A stretch of 55,788 bases of DNA from a virus: IMG/VR virus record IMGVR_UViG_3300027996_000041, positions 1 to 55,788 of that record. One strand, 5' to 3'. This document shows, in pieces, positions 2,169-20,122 of the stretch. Under the pieces are notes generated by a model. That model saw only the letters and a program-made list of their open reading frames with translations. It had not been told where the DNA came from and searched no databases. The translations under genes were made by a program, and so were the position numbers. Every line of letters starts with the position of its first letter. Positions within the stretch are counted from its first letter, which is position 1.

Positions 2169-4517
2169 TTAATTACTTCCTGTATAATTCTTCCTAGGCT
2201 CCATTTTCTCATAAAACCCCTCCTTACTACCTTTCCACCAAATGGGTAACCCATGTTCTTTATTATAGTCCATTTGTTCTGGTGTGACACCCTTTAATTT
2301 AGCTTTAATTTTATCTAATATTTTTTCTTCAGATAGTCCAGTTACTTTAGAAATCTCACCTATACTCTCAAACACTGTATCACTAAACTCCAATGGACTG
2401 TCTATAGCTCCTTGACTACACCATGGTTGGTTATTGTATTTAGCACATTTATCTTTAATCTTAACGTACTTACCACCTTTAACCCATTTAATTTTATTAA
2501 TTTCATCTAATAAAGATTCCTTTATACCTTCAGTTAATACACCACTATTATTGATTTTTTGAACTATTTTCCCACCTTTAAATATTGGTTTTCTTGATGG
2601 TATGTGGTCTTTACCTTTTGCTCCAAATATTGGTACAACGGGTGGCCCGTTTGCTCCCCATACCGAAGCGTGTGTTGTTGCTTCCTCTATCTCTTCTTCT
2701 TTTCTTCTATGTGGTTTTTTAATAGAACCCTCATAACCTATTGATGCGGTACAAACAGCGTAAGGGTTGTAATCCTTACCATCTTTTTTATTTTGTTTTT
2801 TAACATCTTTTACACAACGTTCCCATTTTTTCTTATGTATGGGACTTTCTTTTGTTTTTTTCTTTTCCCCTTCATTAACATTGTCATCACCCAATATATC
2901 AAACACGTCTTGAGCAAAGTTAGGGTCTGTTAAGTCGGACTCTATGCTTTGAATGTTTTTTTCTTCCCACTTTTTTGAAAGTATCTTATAAAAATAATAA
3001 TAAAGTTTTTTAATAGCCCACTTACTAGCTGGTAAATCTCTTCCATTTACTTTTATATACGCATAAGCACTACCTGTATTACTGTAAGAATATTTAACCT
3101 CAATTTTAGCGTTTTGTTTTATACCTGGTAACGAAAAAGTCACCGTATCACCTTCGTCCCAAACACTATATCTAGTGTCGATGAACTGAGCATCTTCAGG
3201 TAAACGTTGTTTTACTCTTTTTAAAATACTTAAAACTAATTTATCTTCTTTTGATTTGATTAACCAACCCTCATTAATCTTATCCGTTTGTTTATCAGTT
3301 AAAGATAAATCAGAGTCAGTCCAGTTTATATCCATTTTAGCTAAGATATCCGATATTTCACCACCTTCCCAAGTTAATTCATCCTTTCTTTCCCAACCTT
3401 TCTCATCGCCAACCCAAGCATCCCCATCGAAACTACCACCTTCATCCCTTAATTTACTAGAACTATTTGATGATAGTTCACTTATTAAGTCTTTTTTGGA
3501 TATGATTTTTGCTTCGGTTTTTTTAGTTACCGTATATATTTTACCGATTGGGTTACTTATAGATTTTTTTCCTGTAATTTCTTTTCCAATCTGTTTAGCG
3601 AACGGTTTTTTAATTATTGTTTCATCCTTACCACCTAGAGGGCCAATAAAAACACCAGTTGATACACCACCACCGGTATTGGTCTCATCTACGTTAAACT
3701 TAGACTCTAACTTATCTAATAGATTTGTGTATATTTTAGTTAATTTATCAACATCACTAACCTTACCTTTATGTTTCTTATAAAAGTTGTTAATCATTGT
3801 CTCTACAGTATCCTTATGTTGGTACTGTGCGGTCTTTATAGTTGATAGTATTCTTTGTACCTCATCCTTAATGGATGTACCACCCATTATAGATGTTTCT
3901 TTTAAATCTTTTTCTAACCCTTTTTCTGAAGCTATAGCCCCATGTTTTTCATTAGAATAGAAATCATGAAATTCTGTTACATGGTCCATCGCAATTTCTT
4001 TAGCTTTAACTTTTGAATTCGTATGTTCCATTTCCACTTTAGTACCTAATTTAATTTCTTTTTTAATATCACCAATGGGTACTTTATGTTTTTTAGCTAT
4101 ATCTTGTACTGTTAACCCTTCAGCTTTACCACCTTTAATTTCTTCAGCTTCCACTTTTATACCAGTGGGCTTTGGTCTTGAGCTACTTAAAGCTCTTTTA
4201 AAATTTAGACCAACCTTCATACCCATTTTATTTTTTTTGGCTCCTTGCGATAATTTAAAGTCATTACCTTCAAAAACATCAAAATCTATTTGCTCATCTG
4301 GTGGTGGTAATAAGTCGTACTTATCGATACCTGGTATAACGCCTAACATTCTACCATCATCCCATTTAACATGTAAAGTACCTAAATCATCAACCCCTTC
4401 TATAGTACCCTCTAAGTCTGTATCTACAGCATTTTGGTCCTCCATAGAAATCATGCGAATTCTCATACCTTTTTTGGCCATCCTATCTTTATAGGTATTA
4501 TTACTAACCCAACCCAT
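2169..4517 (-). CDS. multidomain phage protein with DUF4314- and DUF5661-like modules
   Basis: 782 residues. Residues about 17-72 match the DUF4314 pattern: an SH3-like module with GTIEGVDDLGTLHVKWDDG and a terminal IPGIDKYDLL. Around residues 125-190 is a DUF5661-like stretch (LGTKVEMEHT ... AKEIAMDHV ... FHDFYS), common in phage virion proteins. Near residues 545-600 is a Cys/Lys segment, KWERCVKDVKK ... YNPYAVCTASIG. A further C-terminal part (about 650-782) has two Cys (DKCAKYNNQPWCSQG). Such strings of small domains are known for 'polyvalent' proteins that enter the cell with phage DNA (established for other phages; inferred here). The ATG overlaps the last base of the 4517-4780 stop, so the two are translationally coupled. 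Confidence 0.75.
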   Translation of the reverse strand: MGWVSNNTYKDRMAKKGMRIRMISMEDQNAVDTDLEGTIEGVDDLGTLHVKWDDGRMLGVIPGIDKYDLLPPPDEQIDFDVFEGNDFKLSQGAKKNKMGMKVGLNFKRALSSSRPKPTGIKVEAEEIKGGKAEGLTVQDIAKKHKVPIGDIKKEIKLGTKVEMEHTNSKVKAKEIAMDHVTEFHDFYSNEKHGAIASEKGLEKDLKETSIMGGTSIKDEVQRILSTIKTAQYQHKDTVETMINNFYKKHKGKVSDVDKLTKIYTNLLDKLESKFNVDETNTGGGVSTGVFIGPLGGKDETIIKKPFAKQIGKEITGKKSISNPIGKIYTVTKKTEAKIISKKDLISELSSNSSSKLRDEGGSFDGDAWVGDEKGWERKDELTWEGGEISDILAKMDINWTDSDLSLTDKQTDKINEGWLIKSKEDKLVLSILKRVKQRLPEDAQFIDTRYSVWDEGDTVTFSLPGIKQNAKIEVKYSYSNTGSAYAYIKVNGRDLPASKWAIKKLYYYFYKILSKKWEEKNIQSIESDLTDPNFAQDVFDILGDDNVNEGEKKKTKESPIHKKKWERCVKDVKKQNKKDGKDYNPYAVCTASIGYEGSIKKPHRRKEEEIEEATTHASVWGANGPPVVPIFGAKGKDHIPSRKPIFKGGKIVQKINNSGVLTEGIKESLLDEINKIKWVKGGKYVKIKDKCAKYNNQPWCSQGAIDSPLEFSDTVFESIGEISKVTGLSEEKILDKIKAKLKGVTPEQMDYNKEHGLPIWWKGSKEGFYEKMEPRKNYTGSN

Positions 4518-4780
4518 TATATATTCTCTAATTTATTTGCCCAAAAACTTCTTCTTTGCCACATTGTTTTATAGAATTGTACTAATACTTTTTCAGAAAT
4601 TTTAGCTACCTCTTTCTGTGTTGGTTTGTCGTTTTTAAGTTGCTTTTTAACTAGTGTTTCGATTTTAGTCTTTATATCCGAAGACTTTAACATATCCTCG
4701 AATTCTTTTCTAGCCAACTTTTTGATTTCAGCTTTATCGTCTCTAGTTAGTTCTTCTCTAATAATTTGTTTAATCTTCAT
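4517..4780 (-). CDS. small helical protein with putative capsid-targeting leader
   Basis: 87 residues, almost wholly helical and lysine-rich. The first 11 residues, MKIKQIIREEL, are nearly the same as the start of the protein encoded at 9425-10573 (MNIKRIIREEL) and close to that at 9033-9425, though the rest of the three proteins is unrelated. In T4, packaged internal proteins begin with a 10-residue capsid-targeting sequence cut after (L/I)-x-E by gp21; I-R-E here fits that rule. Packaging is therefore an inference. The ATATTTAT element is only 4 bases before the ATG. It is the first gene of the pair with the 2169-4517 protein. Confidence 0.7.
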   Translation of the reverse strand: MKIKQIIREELTRDDKAEIKKLARKEFEDMLKSSDIKTKIETLVKKQLKNDKPTQKEVAKISEKVLVQFYKTMWQRRSFWANKLENI

Positions 4781-4784
4781 ATTA

Positions 4785-4792
4785 ATAAATAT
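4785..4792 (-). promoter_or_regulatory. ATATTTAT operon-head element (close to start)
   Basis: Minus strand CAATATTTATTAATATG: the octamer ends only 4 bases before the ATG at 4780, closer than its usual 12-16 bases. Either the start is nearly leaderless or this copy is chance. Confidence 0.25.
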
Positions 4793-4803
4793 TGACTGTA
4801 ACC

Positions 4804-4832
4804 AAAAAAATCGAACTAATGTTCGATTTTTT
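4804..4832. terminator. bidirectional terminator hairpin
   Basis: AAAAAAATCGAAC-TAAT-GTTCGATTTTTT: a 6-bp GC-containing core stem extended by A/T pairs, with T runs on both strands. It would stop leftward transcription coming from 4880-5047 and insulate the 4780 operon. Confidence 0.8.
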
Positions 4833-4879
4833 AATACACTAACTAGTGATTATAAAAGTTTTTAAATTTTTTACAATAA

Positions 4880-5047
4880 CTAAGCTCGTCTTCTTCTGTT
4901 TGGTGAACTTTTACTAGTGTGGTTTCTATTTTCTGATACCCTATTTTTAGATTCCTCCAATCTTTCTTCTCTTTTTACTCTTTTTACTATACTCTCTAAA
5001 AGAGTTACGAATTCACTTTCCGTGTATCTTAATACTTTTTTGGCCAT
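4880..5047 (-). CDS. small basic protein, MAKKVLRYTESE-type
   Basis: 55 residues, ATG at 5047, stop TAG at 4880-4882; short but clearly coding. The N-terminal half (RYTESEFVTLLESIVKRVK) resembles a short amphipathic helix often seen at the N-terminus of uncultured phage proteins (pattern RLTESDLxRxVKRVI, from memory of such sequences). The C-terminal half is Arg/Ser/Asn-rich, ending RRRRA, and could bind nucleic acid. It is followed by the terminator at 4804-4832. The ATATTTAT element lies 33 bases upstream. It may be another packaged DNA-binding peptide; not shown. Confidence 0.7.
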   Translation of the reverse strand: MAKKVLRYTESEFVTLLESIVKRVKREERLEESKNRVSENRNHTSKSSPNRRRRA

Positions 5048-5080
5048 TTTGATTGTTTTTTTTTAAATAATTATTCAATA

Positions 5081-5088
5081 ATAAATAT
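5081..5088 (-). promoter_or_regulatory. ATATTTAT operon-head element
   Basis: Minus strand ACATATTTATTATTGAATAA, 33 bases before the ATG at 5047, in the gap before 5111. Spacing is longer than at most other copies. Confidence 0.3.
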
Positions 5089-5110
5089 GTTCTAAACTAG
5101 CTAAAAATCG

Positions 5111-5431
5111 TTATAATCTAAATTTACTCATATAATATCTTTTCCTATGTTGTCTTCCCATCATCTTAGACGTTAATTCTAATGTTTCTGGTATTTTGAT
5201 GTCAGCCACATCTAACTCATCTGTTAGTTTTAATAAAACTTCTAAAAATTCCCCAGTAAGTTGTCTAACATAATCCATACGACCCAAATCATCATCAACG
5301 ATATCGGTTAAATTGTCTAATTTATTTGTTAAATCAGTTACATCAGTTACAGTATCATCGACCTCCATTAAATAATTTAATGAGCCTTTAAGTTCTGAAT
5401 TTGTAAATATGAGTTTATTAAAATAAGCCAA
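5111..5431 (-). CDS. hypothetical acidic helical protein
   Basis: 106 residues, rich in D, T, L; the stretch DDTVTDVTDLTNKLDNLTD (residues 25-43) has a heptad-like leucine/valine spacing and may form a coiled coil. The C-terminus is basic (RQHRKRYYMSKFRL). No family recognised. The reading frame has no ATG at the start: TTG at 5431 is the best start because the ATATTTAT element ends 14 bases before it, exactly as for the ATG starts at 172 and 2128. The basic/acidic split is what small scaffold or assembly factors show, but this is only suggestive. Confidence 0.6.
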   Translation of the reverse strand: MAYFNKLIFTNSELKGSLNYLMEVDDTVTDVTDLTNKLDNLTDIVDDDLGRMDYVRQLTGEFLEVLLKLTDELDVADIKIPETLELTSKMMGRQHRKRYYMSKFRL

Positions 5432-5445
5432 GAATATGTTTTTAA

Positions 5446-5453
5446 ATAAATAT
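5446..5453 (-). promoter_or_regulatory. ATATTTAT operon-head element
   Basis: Minus strand ACATATTTATTTAAAAAC, ending 14 bases before the TTG start at 5431. Confidence 0.4.
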
Positions 5454-5472
5454 GTTTTACTATGGTAAAAAT

Positions 5473-5802
5473 TTATTTAATAACTATTTTTCTATTTAAA
5501 AGATTGGTTAGGGTACAACTAATTAACTGGTTTATGTCGTTATACTCGTTTTCTTTAATCAAATAGCCATCCACCTTAACCTGTGGAGCATATTCACTAC
5601 CACCCATTTTAGCTAATTTATCCCACATAACCTGATTACCACCCATTCCAATAGTTTCAAAAACAACGCCTACCTTATCTAGTTTATTTTTTAGCTCTAC
5701 ACAAGCTGGACAACCATCTAAAGCATAAACTAAAACCTTTTTATCGCTGTTGTTTTTAATCTCCTCTAATAAACTTTTTATTTGTGAATTACTTTTATCC
5801 AT
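5473..5802 (-). CDS. glutaredoxin/thioredoxin-fold protein
   Basis: 109 residues. After a helical N-terminus, a beta strand (KKVLVYAL) leads into the redox motif CPAC (about residues 32-35), and a later YAPQVKVDGYLI segment supplies the cis-proline and following strand of the glutaredoxin fold. It would carry electrons through dithiol exchange in the cytoplasm. T4 also encodes a glutaredoxin (NrdC) that reduces its ribonucleotide reductase; here the RNR at 50328-52232 is a plausible partner, though 45 kb away (inference). It lies in a leftward series with 5111-5431, 42 bases apart. Confidence 0.8.
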   Translation of the reverse strand: MDKSNSQIKSLLEEIKNNSDKKVLVYALDGCPACVELKNKLDKVGVVFETIGMGGNQVMWDKLAKMGGSEYAPQVKVDGYLIKENEYNDINQLISCTLTNLLNRKIVIK

Positions 5803-5848
5803 ATTTAATTTTTCTTTAAATTACTAAAAAAATGGTAATAATTAAATG

Positions 5849-6244
5849 TTAATCTATAACATTTTTTACAATCCATGATGATGTTGTTATTGTAGCACAA
5901 CCAATAATAAAACCTACCCAAGGCTTATTATACCACTTATCAACCTTTTTAAGTCTTTCATCGTATAACAATATGGTTTCATTTAAAATTTCCATTTGTT
6001 TATTTTTATAACCTAATAATAAACTATCTTGTGTTGTTAAAGTATTTTGTAAGTTTACCTGGGTTTTTAAATCATTAATTAAGACTGTTTTAATACTGTC
6101 TTGGTAGACTAGTGTGTCTATTGCTTTAAAAACTTCTTCTAATTCTTGATTAGCTATAGTTGTAGAATCATTAGTTGTTTGTGAAAAACTAGTTAAGGTT
6201 AGTAAAATGAAACTAAGAATAAGAAATACAATTAATTTTTTCAT
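5849..6244 (-). CDS. secreted/membrane protein, possible spanin-type lysis component
   Basis: 131 residues. The first 21 residues form a signal peptide (charged MKK, hydrophobic core, ending SFSQ, a cleavage context common in flavobacteria). Residues 22-100 are a helical, probably coiled-coil segment. Residues about 105-128 (PWVGFIIGCATITTSSWIV) are a second hydrophobic helix near the C-terminus. It overlaps the downstream end of 6241-6552 by four bases (ATGA). A periplasmic coiled coil next to another membrane/coiled-coil protein and an amidase-fold protein fits a spanin or lysis role, but sequence alone does not prove it. Confidence 0.7.
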   Translation of the reverse strand: MKKLIVFLILSFILLTLTSFSQTTNDSTTIANQELEEVFKAIDTLVYQDSIKTVLINDLKTQVNLQNTLTTQDSLLLGYKNKQMEILNETILLYDERLKKVDKWYNKPWVGFIIGCATITTSSWIVKNVID

Positions 6245-6552
6245 TTTTTATGTTTATCTTTAAAATCTTTTAGTGTGTCTACAGCACTTTCAGTATTCTT
6301 AACCTTGGACTCTGTGTCTTTGATTTTTTCTTCGTTCTTTTTGATTTTTTCTTTAGTACTTTTTTTGGACTTTGTTACCTCATCAACCTTTTTTTGTGTT
6401 TCTTTTAGGTCGTTTTCTAATTTCTTTTTATCTTTTTTAAATTCTTTTTTTTCTTTACTTGAATTTGATATTTTAGAAAAAATAAGAAATACACTAAATA
6501 AAGCGACAATACCACCAGACACCCATAACCATATTTTTTTAATCTTTTCCAT
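6241..6552 (-). CDS. membrane-anchored coiled-coil protein (lysis cassette candidate)
   Basis: 103 residues. A short basic N-terminus precedes one transmembrane helix (about residues 8-27, WLWVSGGIVALFSVFLIF), then about 75 residues that are very Lys/Glu-rich with heptads, a long coiled coil. No enzymatic motif. The stop overlaps the ATG of 5849-6244, so both are probably made together. Such a single-span plus coiled-coil layout fits an inner-membrane spanin or an anchoring protein; a holin is less likely because only one helix is present. Confidence 0.65.
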   Translation of the reverse strand: MEKIKKIWLWVSGGIVALFSVFLIFSKISNSSKEKKEFKKDKKKLENDLKETQKKVDEVTKSKKSTKEKIKKNEEKIKDTESKVKNTESAVDTLKDFKDKHKK

Positions 6553-6554
6553 AC

Positions 6555-7112
6555 TTAAAAACCACCTTCTTCAGTCCCAAAACCACCTTCTTCAGTTCCT
6601 TCTTCAGCTCCAAATTCAGATTCTTCAGCCCCTTCTTCAGCTCCAAATTCAGATTCTTCATCTGGTAGTGTACTACCCGTTAGTCTACCACTCCATTCGT
6701 CTGACCAAACATCATAATATCCCCTTAACTTTTTAAGAACCTCCAACACTTCATCACGTAACTGAATTAATTCCGTTGTATAAACATAACACCCAACAGT
6801 ATCATCTAGTGAAAAAGTCCAATCTATTTTTTCTCTAATTAAATGGCCAGACCATTCAACATTTTCTCTATGTACTTTAATTGGGTCGAACTTAACTAGT
6901 TTGGATACTATGTCCTTAAATTTATTCTCCTCATCTTTTTGTTCATCGGGTTCAACCGTTTGTATTTCTTCTTCATTAAGAAGTTTAGACGCTTCCGATT
7001 CCATTAATAAAGCCACATTTTCTTTGTTATTAACAGGGAAATCTGTTAACCCTATTTTTTGACCACTTTCTTGTAATCTCCTTATTTTATCTAAAAATTC
7101 TCTATTATCCAT
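6555..7112 (-). CDS. hypothetical acidic protein with C-terminal Glu/Gly/Phe repeats
   Basis: 185 residues. The N-terminus (REFLDKIRRLQESGQ) is an amphipathic helix; the middle (about 75-145) looks globular, with several Trp and Tyr (VEWSGHLIREKIDW, YYDVWSDEWSGRL). The last 35 residues consist of imperfect repeats of ESEFGAEEG, strongly acidic. Acidic tails of this kind occur in phage assembly and scaffold-like proteins, but I do not recognise the family. It sits two bases from 7115-7702 and two from 6241-6552, so it is part of the same transcript. Confidence 0.6.
   Translation of the reverse strand: MDNREFLDKIRRLQESGQKIGLTDFPVNNKENVALLMESEASKLLNEEEIQTVEPDEQKDEENKFKDIVSKLVKFDPIKVHRENVEWSGHLIREKIDWTFSLDDTVGCYVYTTELIQLRDEVLEVLKKLRGYYDVWSDEWSGRLTGSTLPDEESEFGAEEGAEESEFGAEEGTEEGGFGTEEGGF
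6557..6663. repeat. imperfect tandem repeats in the 3' end of 6555-7112
   Basis: A 33-base unit (TTCTTCAGCTCCAAATTCAG...) occurs twice with period 33 (about 6601 and 6634), preceded by two shorter related copies with AACCACCTTCTTCAGT. They encode the acidic ESEFGAEEG-type repeats and could change copy number by slippage. Confidence 0.75.
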
Positions 7113-7114
7113 TT

Positions 7115-7702
7115 TTATATTATTTTTTCAAATTCAAAAGCCGGACTTACATCCGTTATATCTTTAAAGTAGTTACTTCTAAATGTTATACCTTTAAATA
7201 TATCGACATTCTCATTATATACATTATTACCTATAATTTCTTTAGGTATCTCAAACTCCACACACAAATGGTCTATAAGATTTTTTAATGATTCAAATTG
7301 TTTGTCTGTGTACTTTTTCCAATATTTTTTATTTCTCCAACTCTTTTCAATGAAATCAGATTCTTTACTATAAGTATGCCCAAGCCAATCAACAAAAACG
7401 TTCATTTCGTTTAATCTTAACCATCCCTCATTCACCAACGTTATAGATATGTTACACCTATCTTGTTCACAACCTAAAAAATCAGAATAGTTTTTTGGGT
7501 CGAAGTGTTGGTATACGTTACCATCTTTGTCTATAGTAAAAGTTGAAGTTTTTTTATAATTACCGTTTCTACGATTTATCCAAGACTCAAAATGTATCAT
7601 ACCTTTTCTACTATTATGACCAACTACTATTTGTGTTTTTTTATAGTTTTTTTTATAGTAATTACTAATAGGTAACTTATATGTTTTTTTATCTATCTCC
7701 AT
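7115..7702 (-). CDS. N-acetylmuramoyl-L-alanine amidase-fold protein (endolysin candidate)
   Basis: 195 residues. It follows the Amidase_2/PGRP layout: first strand ending in a potential zinc His (IVVGHNSRKG, about residues 26-35), a middle with YKKTSTFTIDKDGNVYQHF, then SITLVNEGWL, a helix YTDKQFESLKNLIDHLC, and the terminal TDVSPAFEFEKI that corresponds to the usual CPG-F motif. The expected second and third zinc ligands (His, then Cys) appear to be Tyr/Asn and Ser, so it may bind rather than cut peptidoglycan or use other ligands. Location among membrane genes supports lysis. Confidence 0.7.
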   Translation of the reverse strand: MEIDKKTYKLPISNYYKKNYKKTQIVVGHNSRKGMIHFESWINRRNGNYKKTSTFTIDKDGNVYQHFDPKNYSDFLGCEQDRCNISITLVNEGWLRLNEMNVFVDWLGHTYSKESDFIEKSWRNKKYWKKYTDKQFESLKNLIDHLCVEFEIPKEIIGNNVYNENVDIFKGITFRSNYFKDITDVSPAFEFEKII

Positions 7703-8484
7703 TACTCAACTACCCTTTTTGTTTCGCCGTCCTCTTGAATTCCCTCCAAGGGTTCATGTTTTACTTTTAATTTTTCCTTAACCTCTTGGGCATATTCTTT
7801 TACTTCTGCTTTAGGTATATCGTTTACTTCTGCTTTAGGTATATCGTTTACTTCTGCTTTAGGTATATCGTTTACTTCTGCTTTAGGTATATCGTTTACT
7901 TCTGCTTTAAAAACACTTCCATAACTTTTAGGTGTATAAACATCTTCAGGATGGTTTGTCATTGTGTTATACATGTCTTCCTCTACATCGTCAACCTTAT
8001 AGTTTACTAAAGTATCTTCTTCAGGTTTTTCATACTTAACAAAGAAATGTAATGATGTTAAAGATATTATAGGTAATAAACCACCCTCTAAAAAGGCTAA
8101 CCATCTTTTCATACCAACTAAGTCAGTTGTCTCAGTCCCCATTAGTTCCCATACAGGGCCCGTTAATTCTATCCAAGATTTGAATAACTCACCATTTTCA
8201 TCTATTTCTTTAAAGGAATAAAAAATGTTGCCTATCATTTGAATAAAGGTAACTATACCAAACATAAACCAAATACCACCCTTAACCTTATTGGATGCAG
8301 CAACTAACGCTGTTATAGCCCCAACTTCAATAGCTATAGATAGGTATATAGCCCAATTTATAGGGTTAGCCATGTCGTACCAAGATACAACGTGCGATAT
8401 AGATATTCCAGCTACCAAAAGTATGGGTAACAAAAACATTGACCTATTCGGATTATTTTTTATCCAGTTCCAGAAACTTATCAT
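7702..8484 (-). CDS. multi-pass membrane protein with C-terminal octapeptide repeats
   Basis: 260 residues. The N-terminal 150 residues have four to five hydrophobic helices (about 15-35, 42-64, 68-90, and 130-150). The cytoplasmic-type C-terminus is charged and contains KAEVNDIP repeated four times and a fifth partial copy (KAEVKEY). The gene overlaps 8481-8669 by four bases and the amidase-like gene by one. Holin-like or membrane-sensor roles are possible; no family recognised. The repeats are identical in DNA, see the repeat entry. Confidence 0.7.
   Translation of the reverse strand: MISFWNWIKNNPNRSMFLLPILLVAGISISHVVSWYDMANPINWAIYLSIAIEVGAITALVAASNKVKGGIWFMFGIVTFIQMIGNIFYSFKEIDENGELFKSWIELTGPVWELMGTETTDLVGMKRWLAFLEGGLLPIISLTSLHFFVKYEKPEEDTLVNYKVDDVEEDMYNTMTNHPEDVYTPKSYGSVFKAEVNDIPKAEVNDIPKAEVNDIPKAEVNDIPKAEVKEYAQEVKEKLKVKHEPLEGIQEDGETKRVVE
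7802..7909. repeat. 24-bp direct tandem repeat, 4.5 copies
   Basis: The unit ACTTCTGCTTTAGGTATATC+GTTT is repeated four times without change (7802-7897) plus a 12-base partial copy. It is in frame (8 codons), encoding KAEVNDIP. Perfect identity at DNA level suggests recent expansion. Not CRISPR: there are no spacers. Confidence 0.95.
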
Positions 8485-8669
8485 ACCTCAAAACCAAAAT
8501 TAAGTACCATCACCCTAAGTCTAGCACATTTTTCATTATTACATGGGCATATTTTAAATTCTAATAATGTTAACTTCCCAAATCGGATAGTTATACTCCA
8601 TTTATTTTTTTTATTTCCGCCCTTCCAAGAGTTAATCCAATTTACCATAATTTTATTTTTCTTCATCAT
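8481..8669 (-). CDS. small hypothetical protein with a CPCxxEKC cluster
   Basis: 62 residues, ATG at 8669, overlapping the neighbour genes on both sides (17 bases with 8653-8958, 4 with 7702-8484), which supports its being real. Basic N-terminus, a beta-rich centre (WSITIRFGKLTLLEFKI) and three Cys in CPCNNEKC (about residues 41-48), possibly a metal site. No known family. Confidence 0.6.
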   Translation of the reverse strand: MMKKNKIMVNWINSWKGGNKKNKWSITIRFGKLTLLEFKICPCNNEKCARLRVMVLNFGFEV

Positions 8670-8958
8670 TTTTTAATTTATTTATTGGAATTCTGTCCTT
8701 GTCAGATAACTCCTCTAACTCTAATGTTTTCCAGTTAGGCGTTTTTTTAATTAACTCAACCATTTCTTCTTCAGTTATAAAGTTTTTATCATTAGCAATA
8801 TTAATTAGACTATCTAAGTTAGAAATTCTTTCATTAATACTTTTTTCTGTAGATTTAATGTTGTTATTTGTTGAACATGTTTTAAAAAACATAATCATAA
8901 ATAAAGGGAATAGTACCCTAAAACCCCATTTATCAATAAACCCTAATATATTTCCCAT
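8653..8958 (-). CDS. single-span membrane protein with coiled coil
   Basis: 101 residues. One hydrophobic helix near the N-terminus (about residues 12-28, FRVLFPLFMIMFFKTC), then a heptad-rich helical region (STEKSINERISNLDSLI), then a conserved-looking acidic tail (TPNWKTLELEELSDKDRIPINKLKND). It is the first gene of the leftward cassette that runs to 5849, starting just after the divergent control region at 8959-9032. The arrangement fits a small phage membrane protein involved in lysis or superinfection, but no motif decides. Confidence 0.65.
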   Translation of the reverse strand: MGNILGFIDKWGFRVLFPLFMIMFFKTCSTNNNIKSTEKSINERISNLDSLINIANDKNFITEEEMVELIKKTPNWKTLELEELSDKDRIPINKLKNDEEK

Positions 8959-8980
8959 AATTTTTTACTTTAATTTTAAT

Positions 8981-8998
8981 CACTTTTCGTTAAAAGTG
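8981..8998. promoter_or_regulatory. 7-bp hairpin in leader of the leftward cassette
   Basis: CACTTTT-CGTT-AAAAGTG, a perfect inverted repeat 23 bases before the ATG at 8958 on the minus strand. No T run follows in either direction that would make it a terminator. It may be an operator or an mRNA 5' stabiliser. Confidence 0.45.
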
Positions 8999-9014
8999 TA
9001 TAATTTACTTATTA

Positions 9015-9028
9015 TATAAATATTTATA
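9015..9028. promoter_or_regulatory. 14-bp palindrome TATAAATATTTATA in divergent region
   Basis: Perfect palindrome between the leftward cassette (8958) and the rightward operon (9033). It contains the ATATTTAT element in both orientations and also TATAAATA, the T4 late-promoter core. For the plus-strand gene the ATATTTAT copy (9020-9027) ends 5 bases before the ATG. Probably a shared bidirectional promoter. Confidence 0.45.
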
Positions 9029-9032
9029 AAAT

Positions 9033-9425
9033 ATGAATATTAACAATATTATAAAAGAATCTATATTAAGGGAAGAAAAATTTCACGAATTAAACACTGA
9101 AATAGAGTTTACGTTTGATTTACACCATGATATTGGTGGCCACACGGCTAATAGAAAATGGCGCCATGGTTCTGGTGAAAAAATATATGATAGGGATATT
9201 GTTATGTTATTAGATGACGCTAAAGAAGAAATCATATATTCAATTATAGATGGTGATATTAGAAACGGTAGAAGATTCATTGTTTCAAGAGATGGGGGTG
9301 ATTATTTAAATGTAGTTATAAAACCTGAAGAACTAGAGGTTAACCATTGGAATTTGGTTACTATTACAGTTATGAAAAATCAAGATTTTACTGTTGGTAA
9401 AGGTCAATTACAAATAGTTGTATAA
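9033..9425 (+). CDS. BECR-like (RelE/DUF4258-type) nuclease-fold candidate with leader peptide
   Basis: 130 residues. Residues 1-15 (MNINNIIKESILREE) resemble the leader of the proteins at 9425 and 4517 and hold two (I/L)-x-E sites. Afterwards there is a strand, then HTANRKWRHGSGEKIYDRDI followed by a helix, then strands RRFIVSRD, YLNVVIKP and LVTITVMKN. The order His/Arg-rich helix, then three to four strands ending in TITV fits the BECR fold of small phage and toxin RNases (RelE, DUF4258). The match is by pattern only. It is one of few plus-strand genes and its stop overlaps the next ATG (TAATG), so they form one operon. Confidence 0.65.
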   Translation: MNINNIIKESILREEKFHELNTEIEFTFDLHHDIGGHTANRKWRHGSGEKIYDRDIVMLLDDAKEEIIYSIIDGDIRNGRRFIVSRDGGDYLNVVIKPEELEVNHWNLVTITVMKNQDFTVGKGQLQIVV

Positions 9426-10573
9426 TGAATATAAAAAGAATTATAAGGGAGGAATTGGATTCTATTAGTGATAGTTTTTATTTACTTGTATCTGATGATG
9501 AAAGTTTCCCTATAATAGAATCCAATGAACTAGATTGGATTAAAAATGTGGACCCACTTAGTGGTGGTGAATATTACGATGATTCAAAAGCGATTTGTTT
9601 TGGTGATAAACAAAAATACTGTGATGTTAGAATCAATAATGAGTATATCGCTTTTTATTTTACTAGGGATGAGTTAAGTGATTTTTGGGATGAAGAGGGT
9701 TATTGGGAAGATGATAGGTGGATAGTGGAAGCATTATGGCAAAATGGTACACCTTATGATGGTGATGGTGATTGGTATGAGTTTGATTCAGATGAATTTA
9801 ATTACTCTTATTATAGATTAGGTGATGACCAAAAAAATAGATTTAATGAAATATTGAGTTATGTTGGTAGTGGTGAACGTATTGAAAACTTTGAGGACGA
9901 AATGACTAGTCTAACTCGTGAATTCAAACACCCAAAAATACAATCTTTATTTGAAGAGTCGATTAGTGAATACTTAAATCAATTAGGTTATATTATCCAA
10001 AAAAATAGGTGGCTAGATATTTCCAACGAATGGGATAGTGTTTCTAAACAAGTTGGGGTGGAAGTAAGTATGTCAGGTGACGAAATAGAAATTAAAATAC
10101 CGATAGAAAAGGCTTACCAAAACTACTATAGTAAAGGTGTTAATGATTTAACAGGGTTACTTAAAGCTATAATAAAAAAATTAGCTTCTATAAATTGGTA
10201 TGAGTGGTTTTATGATGAATGGGATACAAGTGGTGGTGATGAACAAATAGACCACGCTTTTAATGATTTTTTAGATAAAACAGAAGATTATTTGGATAGT
10301 GAATTTTTTGAAAAATACGAAAAAGTTTTATCTGATTTTAAAGAACTGGGTATTAAAAACAAAAATACTAATTGGTATAATTACAATCAAGTAGAAAGGG
10401 TAAACCCAAATGATGACACTATATGGATTATTGATTTTAAAAGTGGTTATGAAAAAGCTGATTTAAAGTTACACAAAAAACACAGTAGCACTTATTACGG
10501 TAATCAAGATGTTCTAGAAAAACATGTTGACGTTCCATTAGAAGAAATTTCAAAATACATAAAACCTTTATAA
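9425..10573 (+). CDS. large acidic protein with capsid-targeting-like leader
   Basis: 382 residues. The leader MNIKRIIREEL is almost identical to that of the 4517-4780 protein. The rest is very rich in Asp, Glu, Trp and Tyr (for example EEGYWEDDRWIVEALW and WYEWFYDEWDTSGGDEQID), giving a strongly acidic protein with little Lys/Arg in the first 170 residues. No family recognised. Acidic, aromatic-rich phage proteins include DNA mimics that block nucleases, which is one possibility; this is speculation. It is translationally coupled to the BECR-like gene, hinting at a functional pair. Confidence 0.65.
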   Translation: MNIKRIIREELDSISDSFYLLVSDDESFPIIESNELDWIKNVDPLSGGEYYDDSKAICFGDKQKYCDVRINNEYIAFYFTRDELSDFWDEEGYWEDDRWIVEALWQNGTPYDGDGDWYEFDSDEFNYSYYRLGDDQKNRFNEILSYVGSGERIENFEDEMTSLTREFKHPKIQSLFEESISEYLNQLGYIIQKNRWLDISNEWDSVSKQVGVEVSMSGDEIEIKIPIEKAYQNYYSKGVNDLTGLLKAIIKKLASINWYEWFYDEWDTSGGDEQIDHAFNDFLDKTEDYLDSEFFEKYEKVLSDFKELGIKNKNTNWYNYNQVERVNPNDDTIWIIDFKSGYEKADLKLHKKHSSTYYGNQDVLEKHVDVPLEEISKYIKPL

Positions 10574-16446: not shown

Positions 16447-17247
16447 TCACACCAACTCTTCTTCAATATCCTCTATTGAGTTTATCCTAAAAGTGTAGAA
16501 CCCATAGTCTGATTCTAAATTAATGTGTTCGTGTTCTTTTGTCCCAACGTCCCACACAACATATCCATGATTATCTACAGACTCACCAAAGTCTTGCTGT
16601 ATCATTGATGATGGTTGTACAATTGGTGTTCCATGATAATTCATTACTTGGTATAGGTGGATATCGCCACAACAAACAAAATCACAACCATCAAAAATAC
16701 TTATGTCTTGGCCATCCTCAAATTCAAAACCAATATTTGTTTTTAAACCAATTAATGGGTCGTGATATAAACCAACATATTTCTTATCACCATACTGTTC
16801 TCTTGCCTCCTCTATGTTAGGCCTCTTAGAACCTTCCATGTGACCATATAGACACCAAACTATATTATCGTCCTCATAACATCCTGTATGCTTTAAAAAT
16901 TTAAGTCTATTATCCCCCATGGTCTCAATAATAGGTGTTAAGGCATCCATTCTATCTAAGTTATTAGCTAAGAAATCGTGATTACCCAAAATAACAATAG
17001 TATCTGCCATATCACAACAACCTTTAAAAAACCAAGTAACAATATTAATTAGTTCGGGTGTCATTTGATTTTTAGAATGAACAATATCTCCAGCAATAAC
17101 AACCCTAACTTCTTCTCTAGTTAGTTCGTTATCTTCCATGTGTTGTTTTACAGAATCAAAAAATTTCTGAATCTGTTCTCTATATTCATCATGTCTTTTA
17201 TAAAGTCTGATATGGATGTCAGCACAGTGGTATAAATGTTTTATCAT
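16447..17247 (-). CDS. 47: recombination nuclease subunit, gp47/Mre11/SbcD-like phosphoesterase
   Basis: 266 residues. All motifs of the calcineurin-like metallophosphoesterase family are seen: DIH (residue 10-12), GDIVHS (about 50), GNHDFL (about 86-91), then GH near residue 134, and CCGDIHLYQ (about 192-200), giving the two-metal site. It is the nuclease partner of the Rad50-like gp46 at 12918-15293. It is shorter than T4 gp47 (339 residues), mostly at the C-terminal capping part. The ATG overlaps the stop of 17244-17531, so it belongs to the leftward series from about 20122. Confidence 0.92.
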   Translation of the reverse strand: MIKHLYHCADIHIRLYKRHDEYREQIQKFFDSVKQHMEDNELTREEVRVVIAGDIVHSKNQMTPELINIVTWFFKGCCDMADTIVILGNHDFLANNLDRMDALTPIIETMGDNRLKFLKHTGCYEDDNIVWCLYGHMEGSKRPNIEEAREQYGDKKYVGLYHDPLIGLKTNIGFEFEDGQDISIFDGCDFVCCGDIHLYQVMNYHGTPIVQPSSMIQQDFGESVDNHGYVVWDVGTKEHEHINLESDYGFYTFRINSIEDIEEELV

Positions 17248-17531
17248 AATTTAAATTCTTTTACTTGTTTTAATGGTGTGAAATCATTGTCAACTCTATA
17301 GCCATGTTGTCTAAATAAAGCATCAAATAATAATTTTCTTAATTCTCTATTACCTGAAGTGAAATCCATAATCTTTTCCAAATTCAATTCTTTTATTTCA
17401 GTTTCTCTACCAAAACGTAAAATATCAAATCTAGGGACAAGATTTTCATCATTATGGTAAGGTGTTAAATCATAACCTAGATGGCTATAATTTATTCTAA
17501 ACCATCTTTTTAATATATGATATATGTCCAT
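17244..17531 (-). CDS. hypothetical protein upstream of gp47
   Basis: 95 residues, helical, with no motif recognised. Contains aromatic residues near the N-terminus (YHILKRWFRINYSHLGYDL) and FTSGNRELRKLLFDALFRQH. It overlaps both neighbours by one to four bases, so it is translated with them. Possibly an accessory of the recombination nuclease; only position supports this. Confidence 0.6.
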   Translation of the reverse strand: MDIYHILKRWFRINYSHLGYDLTPYHNDENLVPRFDILRFGRETEIKELNLEKIMDFTSGNRELRKLLFDALFRQHGYRVDNDFTPLKQVKEFKL

Positions 17532-17926
17532 TATTTTCGTGATTTAATAAATCTATGTTTATTTACCCATTTCAAAGGTTCTAACCCTTTTTGTGATTCC
17601 CACTGCTCAACAAATAAAGCACAAATTTCAGCCTCAACATCGGTATTGGGCCAACCACTTAAATCTCGGTCATTAAGAAAAAATTCATGCGCTTGTCTAA
17701 TAAAAGATTCCACATTAGGTATGGTTTTACCTTTCTTATATATTCTATAGACTATAGGAAAAATAACATTTGAAAGTGTAGTATTCCCCATATAAGAATC
17801 ATGAGATACTACATAGTTAGCTACAAGTTCATATTTTAAAGCCAAAACAGGTTTTAAGTTTTCGGGCATTTGTTCCAAAAAACCCAATTCATACCATTTA
17901 TTTGTTATCTCTTCTATATCAAACAT
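17531..17926 (-). CDS. hypothetical helical protein
   Basis: 131 residues, largely alpha-helical (MFDIEEITNKWYELGFLEQ, then LKPVLALKYELVANYVV). Ends in a basic tail (WVNKHRFIKSRK). No family recognised. One-base overlaps with neighbours on both sides put it in the same operon as the P-loop ATPase and gp47. Confidence 0.6.
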   Translation of the reverse strand: MFDIEEITNKWYELGFLEQMPENLKPVLALKYELVANYVVSHDSYMGNTTLSNVIFPIVYRIYKKGKTIPNVESFIRQAHEFFLNDRDLSGWPNTDVEAEICALFVEQWESQKGLEPLKWVNKHRFIKSRK

Positions 17927-18333
17927 TATAGTTCGTGTTTTTTAATAAACCTATTTGGTTCTACTGTAGATTTTTTATACAATCCATCCTCATAAAAGTC
18001 CAAAATCTCCTTACATTTAATACTGTTACATGTTGTTGTAGTGTAGTAAGCATTTTCATCAACCACTAACTTATTTGACGGTAATAAATCAACCTCATCG
18101 ACAAACTGTCTCATTGTGACTGGTGACTGAAACATTTTGTGTGATGTTATAGTTCTTTTTGAACAAAAATCACCACACTTTTCATGTATATTATCTTGTA
18201 TTAACTTTCTTGTGTTTTTTTCTTTGGCCACAATTAAAGCTGTTTTATTTTTATTTTCTTTTAAAAAAGATACAACACTATTAACTAACCTTGTTGTTTT
18301 ACCACTTTGTCTTGGTTGAATTTCTACGTACAT
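17926..18333 (-). CDS. small P-loop ATPase/terminase-like fragment
   Basis: 135 residues. Walker A PRQSGKTTRLV lies at residues 7-17 and a Walker B-like strand KLVVDENAYY near residue 90. Between them KTALIVAKEKNTRKLI fits the second strand of helicase or terminase ATPase domains. The protein is too short for a full motor; it resembles the N-terminal ATPase half only, and it is a stand-alone gene with its own start and coupled neighbours. It could bind ATP in a DNA-processing complex with gp47. Substrate unknown. Confidence 0.7.
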   Translation of the reverse strand: MYVEIQPRQSGKTTRLVNSVVSFLKENKNKTALIVAKEKNTRKLIQDNIHEKCGDFCSKRTITSHKMFQSPVTMRQFVDEVDLLPSNKLVVDENAYYTTTTCNSIKCKEILDFYEDGLYKKSTVEPNRFIKKHEL

Positions 18334-18564: not shown

Positions 18565-18971
18565 TGTTCTATTTTTTTTGCTTTTATAATCATTTTTATT
18601 TTTGTGTTAAAGTTTTCTGGTATTATTGATTCAACAGATACAACATAACCACTCTCTAATAAAAGAGAACCTAATTCTTTTGCCATATCTTGTTTAATTG
18701 TGGTGATAAGTTCTTCTCTTTGGTTACCGTATGTTCTTAATATTTCTGGACTTATAACTCTTTCAACAATTACCTCTTCAATTGGTGATATTTCAAACCT
18801 TGCCGGACTTGTTTCATAATTAACGTTAATACCATCCACAACACCTATTGGGTACAACCCACCTTCCCTACTATGTGTGTTACAGTATCTTGTTGCTGAC
18901 TGAACCCAACCATTTGTGTCTAACTGTTTTTCTTTTTTAACAAATTTATGTTTTAGTTTATTTCCGTCCAT
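18561..18971 (-). CDS. hypothetical protein
   Basis: 136 residues. Basic N-terminus, a middle with THSREGGLYPIGVVDGINV and a C-terminal alpha/beta part (VVSVESIIPENFNTKIKMII). No motif identified. The ATG overlaps the stop of the DruA-like gene by one base, indicating co-translation. Confidence 0.6.
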   Translation of the reverse strand: MDGNKLKHKFVKKEKQLDTNGWVQSATRYCNTHSREGGLYPIGVVDGINVNYETSPARFEISPIEEVIVERVISPEILRTYGNQREELITTIKQDMAKELGSLLLESGYVVSVESIIPENFNTKIKMIIKAKKIEQ

Positions 18972-20122
18972 TATCTTACCATGTCCACTATTTTATTATC
19001 TATACTATATTCCGTATATATTTCCAACTCTGTTCTAATTCTATCTTCAGAACTTAATTTTTCCCATCTCTTCTGTGCTTTCTTTTTCCACCATTCATAC
19101 ATGTACTCCAAATTATGTTTATGAAAGTTTTGACCTTCTTTTAAAGGTATAGCTCCTTGGGAGTTAACGTGTTCTTTTACGTTGTCAAAACCAAAATTAG
19201 AATAGTAATATCTTTTCTTGGTTTTAGCTTTCATGCTTTCTTTGGTGAATAGGTGGAATTCTTTATAAGCCTCCTCATCGTAGTGTTTTAAATGGTTTTT
19301 GAGTATTGAAATAGCTTTATTAAACTCTCTCATTTTTGGTCCTGAAGGTTTAGGGTCAACTGTGTTACCATTCCACTCTTCTTTACCGTATAACTCCCTC
19401 ATTCTACCTCTAATTGGTTCATACACCTCTTGTGTTGGAAATAGAAATACGTCTGATTCTGTCATCGCTTGGTATCTCATAAATGGTTTAAGTCCATCAT
19501 ATTGGCTAACACCTTTTAGGTCACCATATAGTGATGTTGTTTCCATAAAACAAGTTTCAATCTTTTCACCGTACTTATCTTTTAACATATTCCTTATTTC
19601 GTGAGAACAGGCAATTAAAGCCAATAACTTCCCACCAAGACAATTAAAACCAAAAGGTTGTACTGGTACTATAATAGCCCCATTAATCATACTTCTATTA
19701 ACTTGTGTAGCGACCACTTTTTCACCAAAATAATCATTTCTAGGTTTAATAGCTAAAACTGGTGATGCCATTCTAATAAACCCCACATAAGTATTTGTGG
19801 TTGTTTCTTCTATCCCCAAGGTTATTTGCCTACCAATTTGGGGTTCTAATGGTAATGAGGTTATAATCTGTGTTGAGGGTGTGAACATTTTACCTTCAAT
19901 AACTTTTATCCTAAAATTCATGTCTTTTGGCTCTACTGTTGGGTCATTGAACATGTTTACTGTGTATTTTTCATGGTTAATGTCAACAATTTTTTCTTTT
20001 TTTCTAGCTAAAAAATAATCTTGTATCGTATCTAAATTCTCATAAAACCCAACAAAAGTGTCTCTAATTTCTAAAGTCTCTTCTTCTGTTAATAAAGGTT
20101 CGAATTCTTTTTTTTCTGCCAT
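18971..20122 (-). CDS. DUF4338/DruA-like protein
   Basis: 383 residues. The region of about residues 110-225 follows the DUF4338 plan: GFIRMASPVL, RNDYFGEK, then an N-R-S...VPVQPFGFNCLGGKLLALIACS stretch, KYGEKIETCFMETTSLYGDLKG and SQYDGL. In DruA of the Druantia anti-phage system the corresponding parts are an (A)RDEFIGW-type segment and LLETFVE...GTCYRAANW (compared from memory). The C-terminal 150 residues are helical and basic, with WWKKKAQKRWEK. Whether it blocks or mimics defence, or acts on DNA, cannot be seen. It heads the leftward operon that continues to gp47. Confidence 0.6.
   Translation of the reverse strand: MAEKKEFEPLLTEEETLEIRDTFVGFYENLDTIQDYFLARKKEKIVDINHEKYTVNMFNDPTVEPKDMNFRIKVIEGKMFTPSTQIITSLPLEPQIGRQITLGIEETTTNTYVGFIRMASPVLAIKPRNDYFGEKVVATQVNRSMINGAIIVPVQPFGFNCLGGKLLALIACSHEIRNMLKDKYGEKIETCFMETTSLYGDLKGVSQYDGLKPFMRYQAMTESDVFLFPTQEVYEPIRGRMRELYGKEEWNGNTVDPKPSGPKMREFNKAISILKNHLKHYDEEAYKEFHLFTKESMKAKTKKRYYYSNFGFDNVKEHVNSQGAIPLKEGQNFHKHNLEYMYEWWKKKAQKRWEKLSSEDRIRTELEIYTEYSIDNKIVDMVR

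Follow-up and report, generated by a model that had tools for sequence, protein, structure and literature searches.

The 55,788-nucleotide (55.8 kb) stretch of DNA analysed here, referred to as the window, is an IMG/VR fragment of an uncultured T4-type phage (record IMGVR_UViG_3300027996_000041). Four genes, all located within its first 10.6 kb and using both strands, begin with a short leader that contains a site ending in glutamate, and this leader is the subject of the present work. An initial annotation had proposed that the leader is a capsid-targeting signal on a set of packaged effectors of a Bacteroidota phage. The four open reading frames (ORFs) and their N-termini are as that annotation gave them, while the host comes solely from likeness to a Flavobacterium phage. 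The genes and their leaders are as follows, a slash marking the predicted cut.

4517-4780, minus strand: leader-bearing gene of 87 amino acids, with a strongly charged body of no family
4748-4780, minus strand: its leader, MKIKQIIRE/EL, site I7-R8-E9; 26.7 bits, the highest of 62 genes
9033-9425, plus strand: leader-bearing gene of 130 amino acids, overlapping the start of the tagged gene 9425-10573
9033-9065, plus strand: its leader, MNINNIIKE/SIL (N-terminus MNINNIIKESILREE); 16.1 bits; a further L-x-E (L12-R13-E14) lies close behind
9425-10573, plus strand: leader-bearing gene of 382 amino acids, holding an 'ELDWIKNVDP' box that in relatives directly follows the leader
9425-9457, plus strand: its leader, MNIKRIIRE/EL; 25.7 bits
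761-2128, minus strand: leader-bearing gene of 455 amino acids
2090-2128, minus strand: its leader, MSKNIKKILKE/KM (N-terminus MSKNIKKILKEKM); 14.7 bits; an L-F-E/T site lies about 6 residues later

The leader observation is real. The scores listed above come from a profile that was run on the N-termini of the 62 window genes; its training set was 19 leaders, all taken from viral contigs other than the window. The fifth-ranked gene reached 2.3 bits and the top of 2,224 internal segments 7.4 bits; shuffled N-termini equalled the four scores, from highest to lowest, in 0, 0, 4 and 6 of 24,800 cases. Thresholding the window independently gave 4 matches against 0.06 expected. The gene 761-2128, for which a related leader had been claimed, is thereby clearly set apart from the remaining genes. 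The bodies behind the leaders had been described as otherwise unrelated and they are: with the leaders removed, blastp shows no mutual similarity among the four (best E 0.13). Pfam and PHROG scans of the four proteins returned no reliable match, a PIN_5 match to the 4517 protein (E 0.045) being too weak and discarded. Homologues of the 9425 body were absent from INPHARED and IMG/VR searches, and AlphaFold, run without an alignment, gave uninformative folds for the 9425 and 9033 proteins (pLDDT 40 and 30, respectively).

Distribution and modularity of the leader

IMG/VR was searched at the DNA level with a degenerate pattern encoding M[KN][IL]Kx-II-[KR]-EE. The pattern was found in 39 stretches, compared with 4 for the reversed codon order and 7 for a codon permutation of identical degeneracy. 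It stands at the start of an ORF in 43 of 45 viral matches, as against 12 of 32 matches in 257 Gb of cellular genomes, and several of these 12 belong to one family of 265 amino acids. The viral bearers form 19 body clusters with no blastp matches between clusters. At position 11, which the pattern left free, 18 of the 19 have L, I or F. A literature search on the leader strings found none reported.

A pattern of this kind could arise if the tagged proteins were one paralogous family whose bodies have diverged past recognition. True paralogues do occur in arrays such as L008, and roughly one bearer in four has a DxDW[IVA] box immediately behind its leader. Pfam, run on 102 bearers, nevertheless assigned them to T4-type lysozymes (5), DHH phosphoesterases (3), SAM lyase (1), DUF5661 (1) and a P-loop kinase-like family (1), the others being mostly without a match. 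Bodies of such different kinds, together with the lack of blastp similarity among the 19 clusters and among the four window bodies, make a single family very improbable. The box itself, [DE]xDW[IVA] in its wider form, is found 0-4 residues past the leader glutamate in 27 of 116 bearers, and 25 residues on in the window 9425 protein (residues 34-43); it is possibly a second shared module.

Alternatively, it could be the nucleic acid of the 5' ends that is conserved, for example as a translation-enhancing or recombination sequence, with the peptide as a by-product. One pair of genes favours this: the leader of window gene 9425 and that of a different gene, of 45 amino acids, in contig G033 are identical at 30 of 33 nucleotides, while their flanks match at chance level. 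This pair looks like a moved cassette, and cassettes may move by recombination. Across the 19 unrelated bodies, however, residues that two leaders share use the same codon at a frequency of 0.56, and 0.55 is expected from codon usage, so selection has acted on the protein and not on the DNA. This codon test largely refutes conservation at the level of mRNA. Paralogues, moreover, swap leader classes of different DNA. Two neighbour genes of G033 have bodies that are 37% identical, and their leaders are MNLKKIIKEE and MNPQEEINRIKSIMGLLIE/G; the alignment begins just past the leader, which argues that the leader classes are interchangeable signals. Taken with the codon test, this leaves nucleic-acid conservation as the least probable of the explanations considered. 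In G033, a relative of the window's phage, two runs with nine genes in all (L178, 3.4-15.5 kb) each carry one of several leader classes.

Head genes, protease and cleavage-like sites in relatives

The relatives of the window's phage were identified via the baseplate protein gp6, and the T4 head-gene order was used as the comparison for the regions around gp21. PF03420, the T4-gp21 protease family, occurs in 9 of 36 leader contigs and gp23, whole or in pieces, in 12 of 36. Gp23 was found in none of 11 control contigs, which are small, and an HK97-type capsid gene in none of 47 contigs, leader contigs included. Around gp21 the gene order is that of T4 (portal, core proteins, gp21, gp22, gp23), and tagged genes stand both in the interval from gp21 to gp22 and behind gp23. 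Contigs G004, G017 and G059 have tagged genes placed between gp21 and gp22/gp23. In G059 (226 kb), whose gp6 is about 59% identical to that of the window, tagged genes stand directly after both gp21 and a full-length gp23. A longer leader class, MKK[IV]IKL[TN]E[NS]D[IL]xxLVKKIIKE, adjoins gp21 in G004, G017, G045 and G059.

Tagged genes also occur in two further phages. The cultured Flavobacterium phage vB_FspM_immuto, called immuto here, whose host is Flavobacterium sp. LMO8, carries the class MENFDLKKFLVENKLTxNSKLLKE and has at least 5 tagged genes (5 against 0.22 expected). Four of them lie within 100-135 kb, the region of gp20-gp21-gp23, an interval that was picked after the map was seen. 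A literature search for virion proteomics of immuto found no paper. Of the 723 N-termini of the huge phage LR756508, 31 are above a threshold passed by 0.1% of internal segments, where 0.7 would be expected. Its tagged genes make up 16 of the 58 genes in the gp21-gp23 stretch and 15 of the 665 elsewhere (P 4e-11), and the gene at the position of T4 gp67/gp68 has the N-terminus MMNKEKLKDVIRKEVKSALNE/I.

This neighbourhood bears on the possibility that the leader docks a partner other than the capsid, such as host RNA polymerase, the membrane or another phage protein, and that the tagged proteins act in the cell, early or late, without being packaged. An amphipathic helix could suit many partners, some of the cargo (lysozymes) usually works in the cell, and some tagged genes are far from the head cluster. 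Such docking would not predict enrichment beside gp21-gp22-gp23 or a leader on the gene at the gp67/gp68 position; nor would it predict the T4 register of the leader or the conserved L/I-x-E of the DHH family described below, which is kept despite a variable leader length. We regard it as unlikely, although it is the strongest of the alternatives.

By its sequence the protease is intact. In the gp21 homologues of 12 such phages, the residues at T4 positions His85, Ser140 and Asp168, which we take to be the catalytic triad, are kept, and they are invariant in all 13 sequences compared. Some of these proteins are unusually long: gp21 of LR756508 (L066:4532-6256) has a long intein-like insertion immediately behind the conserved His-Pro-Asp, and the frames of G003 and G007 have 749 and 618 amino acids, the match in G007 being split. 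The major capsid proteins (MCPs) have an invariant glutamate (E59 in immuto) that aligns to T4 E65, with L/I/V-x-E leading up to it. In 116 leaders, the third residue before the cut (P3) is I in 71, L in 32 and V in 13, a motif that the selecting expression demanded.

Sites in the DHH family count independently of this, because no selection on the leader was made there. Among 46 distinct orthologous N-termini, which differ in length and in sequence, [LIV]-[LI]-x-E is found upstream of a conserved G[IL]R in 45, followed by [STG] in all 46; P2 is free. This phage protein is very widespread (more than 600 viral contigs match; L190-L269), with a variable, cleavable-looking leader that ends in [LI]xE/[ST]G. 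In LR756508, a second [IL]-x-E stands at one fixed register in 10 of 26 tagged genes and is rarer in later segments of the same proteins.

Interpretation as probable T4-type propeptides

The T4 gp21 protease cleaves after L/I-x-E, and packaging of the T4 internal protein IPIII requires no more than its first 10 residues, with residues 4 and 7 involved in targeting and residues 8 and 10 in processing (PMC9026906). The T4 N-termini read here are MKTYQEFIAE/A for ipII and ipIII, MKTFKEFTSTTTPVSTITE/A for ipI and MAKINELLRE/S for gp24. A shift of one residue places I3, I6, I7 and E9 of the window leaders on Y4, F7, I8 and E10 of this capsid-targeting sequence (CTS), and the spacing hydrophobic-x-x-hydrophobic-I/L/V-x-E is the same. 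The two-part layout of ipI, a helix followed by I-T-E/A, is also that of leaders with two sites, such as MNIKRIIREEINKGLITE/K. As in IPI, IPII, IPIII and Alt of T4, a leader of about 10-20 residues stands at the N-terminus of unrelated small proteins, and the phage type, as seen in relatives, has a gp21-type protease and a gp23-type capsid. The system differs from T4 in the leader sequence itself, in the residue after the cut (P1'), often E, and in the frequent DxDW box. T4 has a handful of tagged genes, whereas up to about 30 are found here, with several leader classes per genome. The window bodies are not homologous to IPI-III or Alt, by Pfam and PHROG.

Related signals are known elsewhere. 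In the giant phages phiKZ and SPN3US, inner-head proteins have N-terminal propeptides that are removed after x-E by a gp21-related protease, and the diverged proteins gp53 and gp54 have identical N-termini. Both the N-terminal position and the type of protease are shared with the present leaders, but the phiKZ motif is S/A-x-E and the SPN3US propeptides are mostly longer than 100 residues, whereas the leaders here have about 7-25 amino acids and a site of the form I/L/V-x-E. DarB of phage P1 is an anti-restriction protein with a signal for head packaging that is likewise N-terminal; for the N-termini of the P1 Dar proteins no consensus has been found, and those described here have one.

We consider the leaders to be probably head-loading propeptides of the T4 CTS type, cut by the phage's own gp21, with a probability of roughly 80%. 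The assignment is based on a leader common to unrelated proteins, the T4 spacing of positions, the site conservation in the DHH family and the gp21 triad of relatives. While the prohead assembles, the short amphipathic N-terminal helix (hydrophobic-x-x-hydrophobic-I/L-x-E) would dock the tagged protein on the core. Next, the prohead protease, of the gp21 type (S77), would cut after the glutamate of (L/I)-x-E, either at the site that closes the helix (II[KR]E/) or at a second one some residues later (LINE/S, VLSE/A), and the cargo, freed inside the head, would leave with the DNA at infection. Docking, cutting, packaging and injection, and the same route for the four window proteins, are what we infer from the sequences. 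For the initial proposal of a T4-like propeptide with a gp21-type site, this means strong support from the CTS register, the clustering with head genes, the triad, the sites of orthologues and the swapping of leaders, while packaging, cutting and injection keep a predicted status.

Several observations weigh against this interpretation. Gp21, gp22, gp23 and other head genes are absent from the window fragment, and the co-occurrence with gp21 is that of relatives only. Two leader contigs, G001 (142 kb) and G016 (168 kb), both fragments, gave no gp21 or gp23 match with home-made profiles. P1' is E in 76 of the 116 leaders, while A, S or T takes this place in the T4 sites that were read; the site given as I-x-E by the initial annotation is better written (I/L)-x-E, with a further glutamate mostly following as P1'. 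The tagged window proteins are without a known virion-protein homologue. The five bearers that are lysozyme proteins are less obvious factors of host take-over.

We also lean, with less confidence, towards a broader statement, namely that uncultured and huge T4-type phages generally use an interchangeable leader family as a code for head loading. By this family we mean MNIKKIIKEE, MKKIIKLTENDLxxLVKKIIKE, RIKSIMGLLIE, FDLKKFLVENKLTxNSKLLKE and the variable LIxE/SG type. With such a code, as many as about 30 proteins of one genome would be destined for packaging and injection, far more than in T4, and the set could be read from the sequence alone. T4 provides the precedent for the mechanism. In the open-access literature searched, no description was found of such a scale, of several exchangeable classes or of this phage group. 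New with respect to T4 would be the interchangeable classes, the number of tagged genes and a cargo that includes SAM lyase, lysozyme and DHH proteins. If the code holds, a single search rule would be enough to rank hypothetical proteins of uncultured phages as injected ones, including candidates for anti-defence at first contact such as the tagged SAM lyase, and the number of proteins delivered beyond the few internal proteins of T4 becomes a testable question in a cultured Flavobacterium phage.

Cargo and other genes

The tagged SAM lyase family protein (L009:2105-2845, E 3.6e-12) has the leader MNIKKIIKEEFQRTLINE/SS. SAM lyase has anti-restriction activity, as in the T3 SAMase, and an enzyme of this kind would profit from injection. 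The L009 protein is a candidate for an injected anti-restriction protein. The term effectors, used by the initial annotation, fits this protein of relatives; lysozyme and DHH proteins suggest a cargo broader than host take-over, and the window bodies, which match no family, are at most putative effectors. Tagged LR756508 proteins that contain YRGT were considered as ADP-ribosyltransferases, prompted by T4 Alt, and Pfam gave no support for it.

Further features of the window are the following.

6966-7112, minus strand: N-terminal segment of about 49 amino acids of the gene 6555-7112, with a weak to moderate likeness to the MCP propeptide (ENVALLMESEASKLLNE/EE compared with ENIALLYENQASVLINE/T)
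2169-4517, minus strand: neighbour gene of 782 amino acids with DUF4314 and DUF5661, itself without leader
17244-18333, minus strand: run of short ORFs that mimic pieces of head genes
17244, 17531 and 17926: three adjacent genes whose products share a C-terminal tag
18971-20122, minus strand: homologue of the Druantia protein DruA (PF14236, E 8.8e-13)

The N-terminus of 6555-7112 was matched, among window proteins, by a home-made hidden Markov model of the MCP N-terminal domain (E 2.4e-4). It is a candidate for a fifth propeptide in the same range, of another type than the four leaders. DUF5661 is shared by the neighbour gene 2169-4517 and a leader-bearing protein of phage immuto, which is an association only.

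The runs of short ORFs mimic the MCP N-terminal domain, the MCP middle and the MCP C-terminus in shuffled order. Besides the window, they are found in G059 (L309:2242-5096 and L310:2034-2655), G033, G053, G054, G056, G062, G002, G005, G010 and G045. G059 and G045 have a full MCP besides the mimic ORFs. In G002, G005 and G010 there is also a gp21-like piece in which the region of the serine motif is changed (GLATRANG compared with GISSRGVG), and the window cluster includes a terminase-like P-loop protein with 'RQSGKTTR'. One guess is that these ORFs encode dominant-negative or competitor-exclusion proteins. The C-terminal tag that these mini-proteins have in common, approximately P[ILYN][KRN]x[IVF]xK[HF]xL (PLKQVKEFKL, PNRFIKKHEL, PIKYIPKHKL, PYNYVKKHKL), is also found at L309:2636, 3037, 3330 and 4782. 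The DruA homologue adjoins the mini-gene cluster in G059 too (L309:1090-2241).

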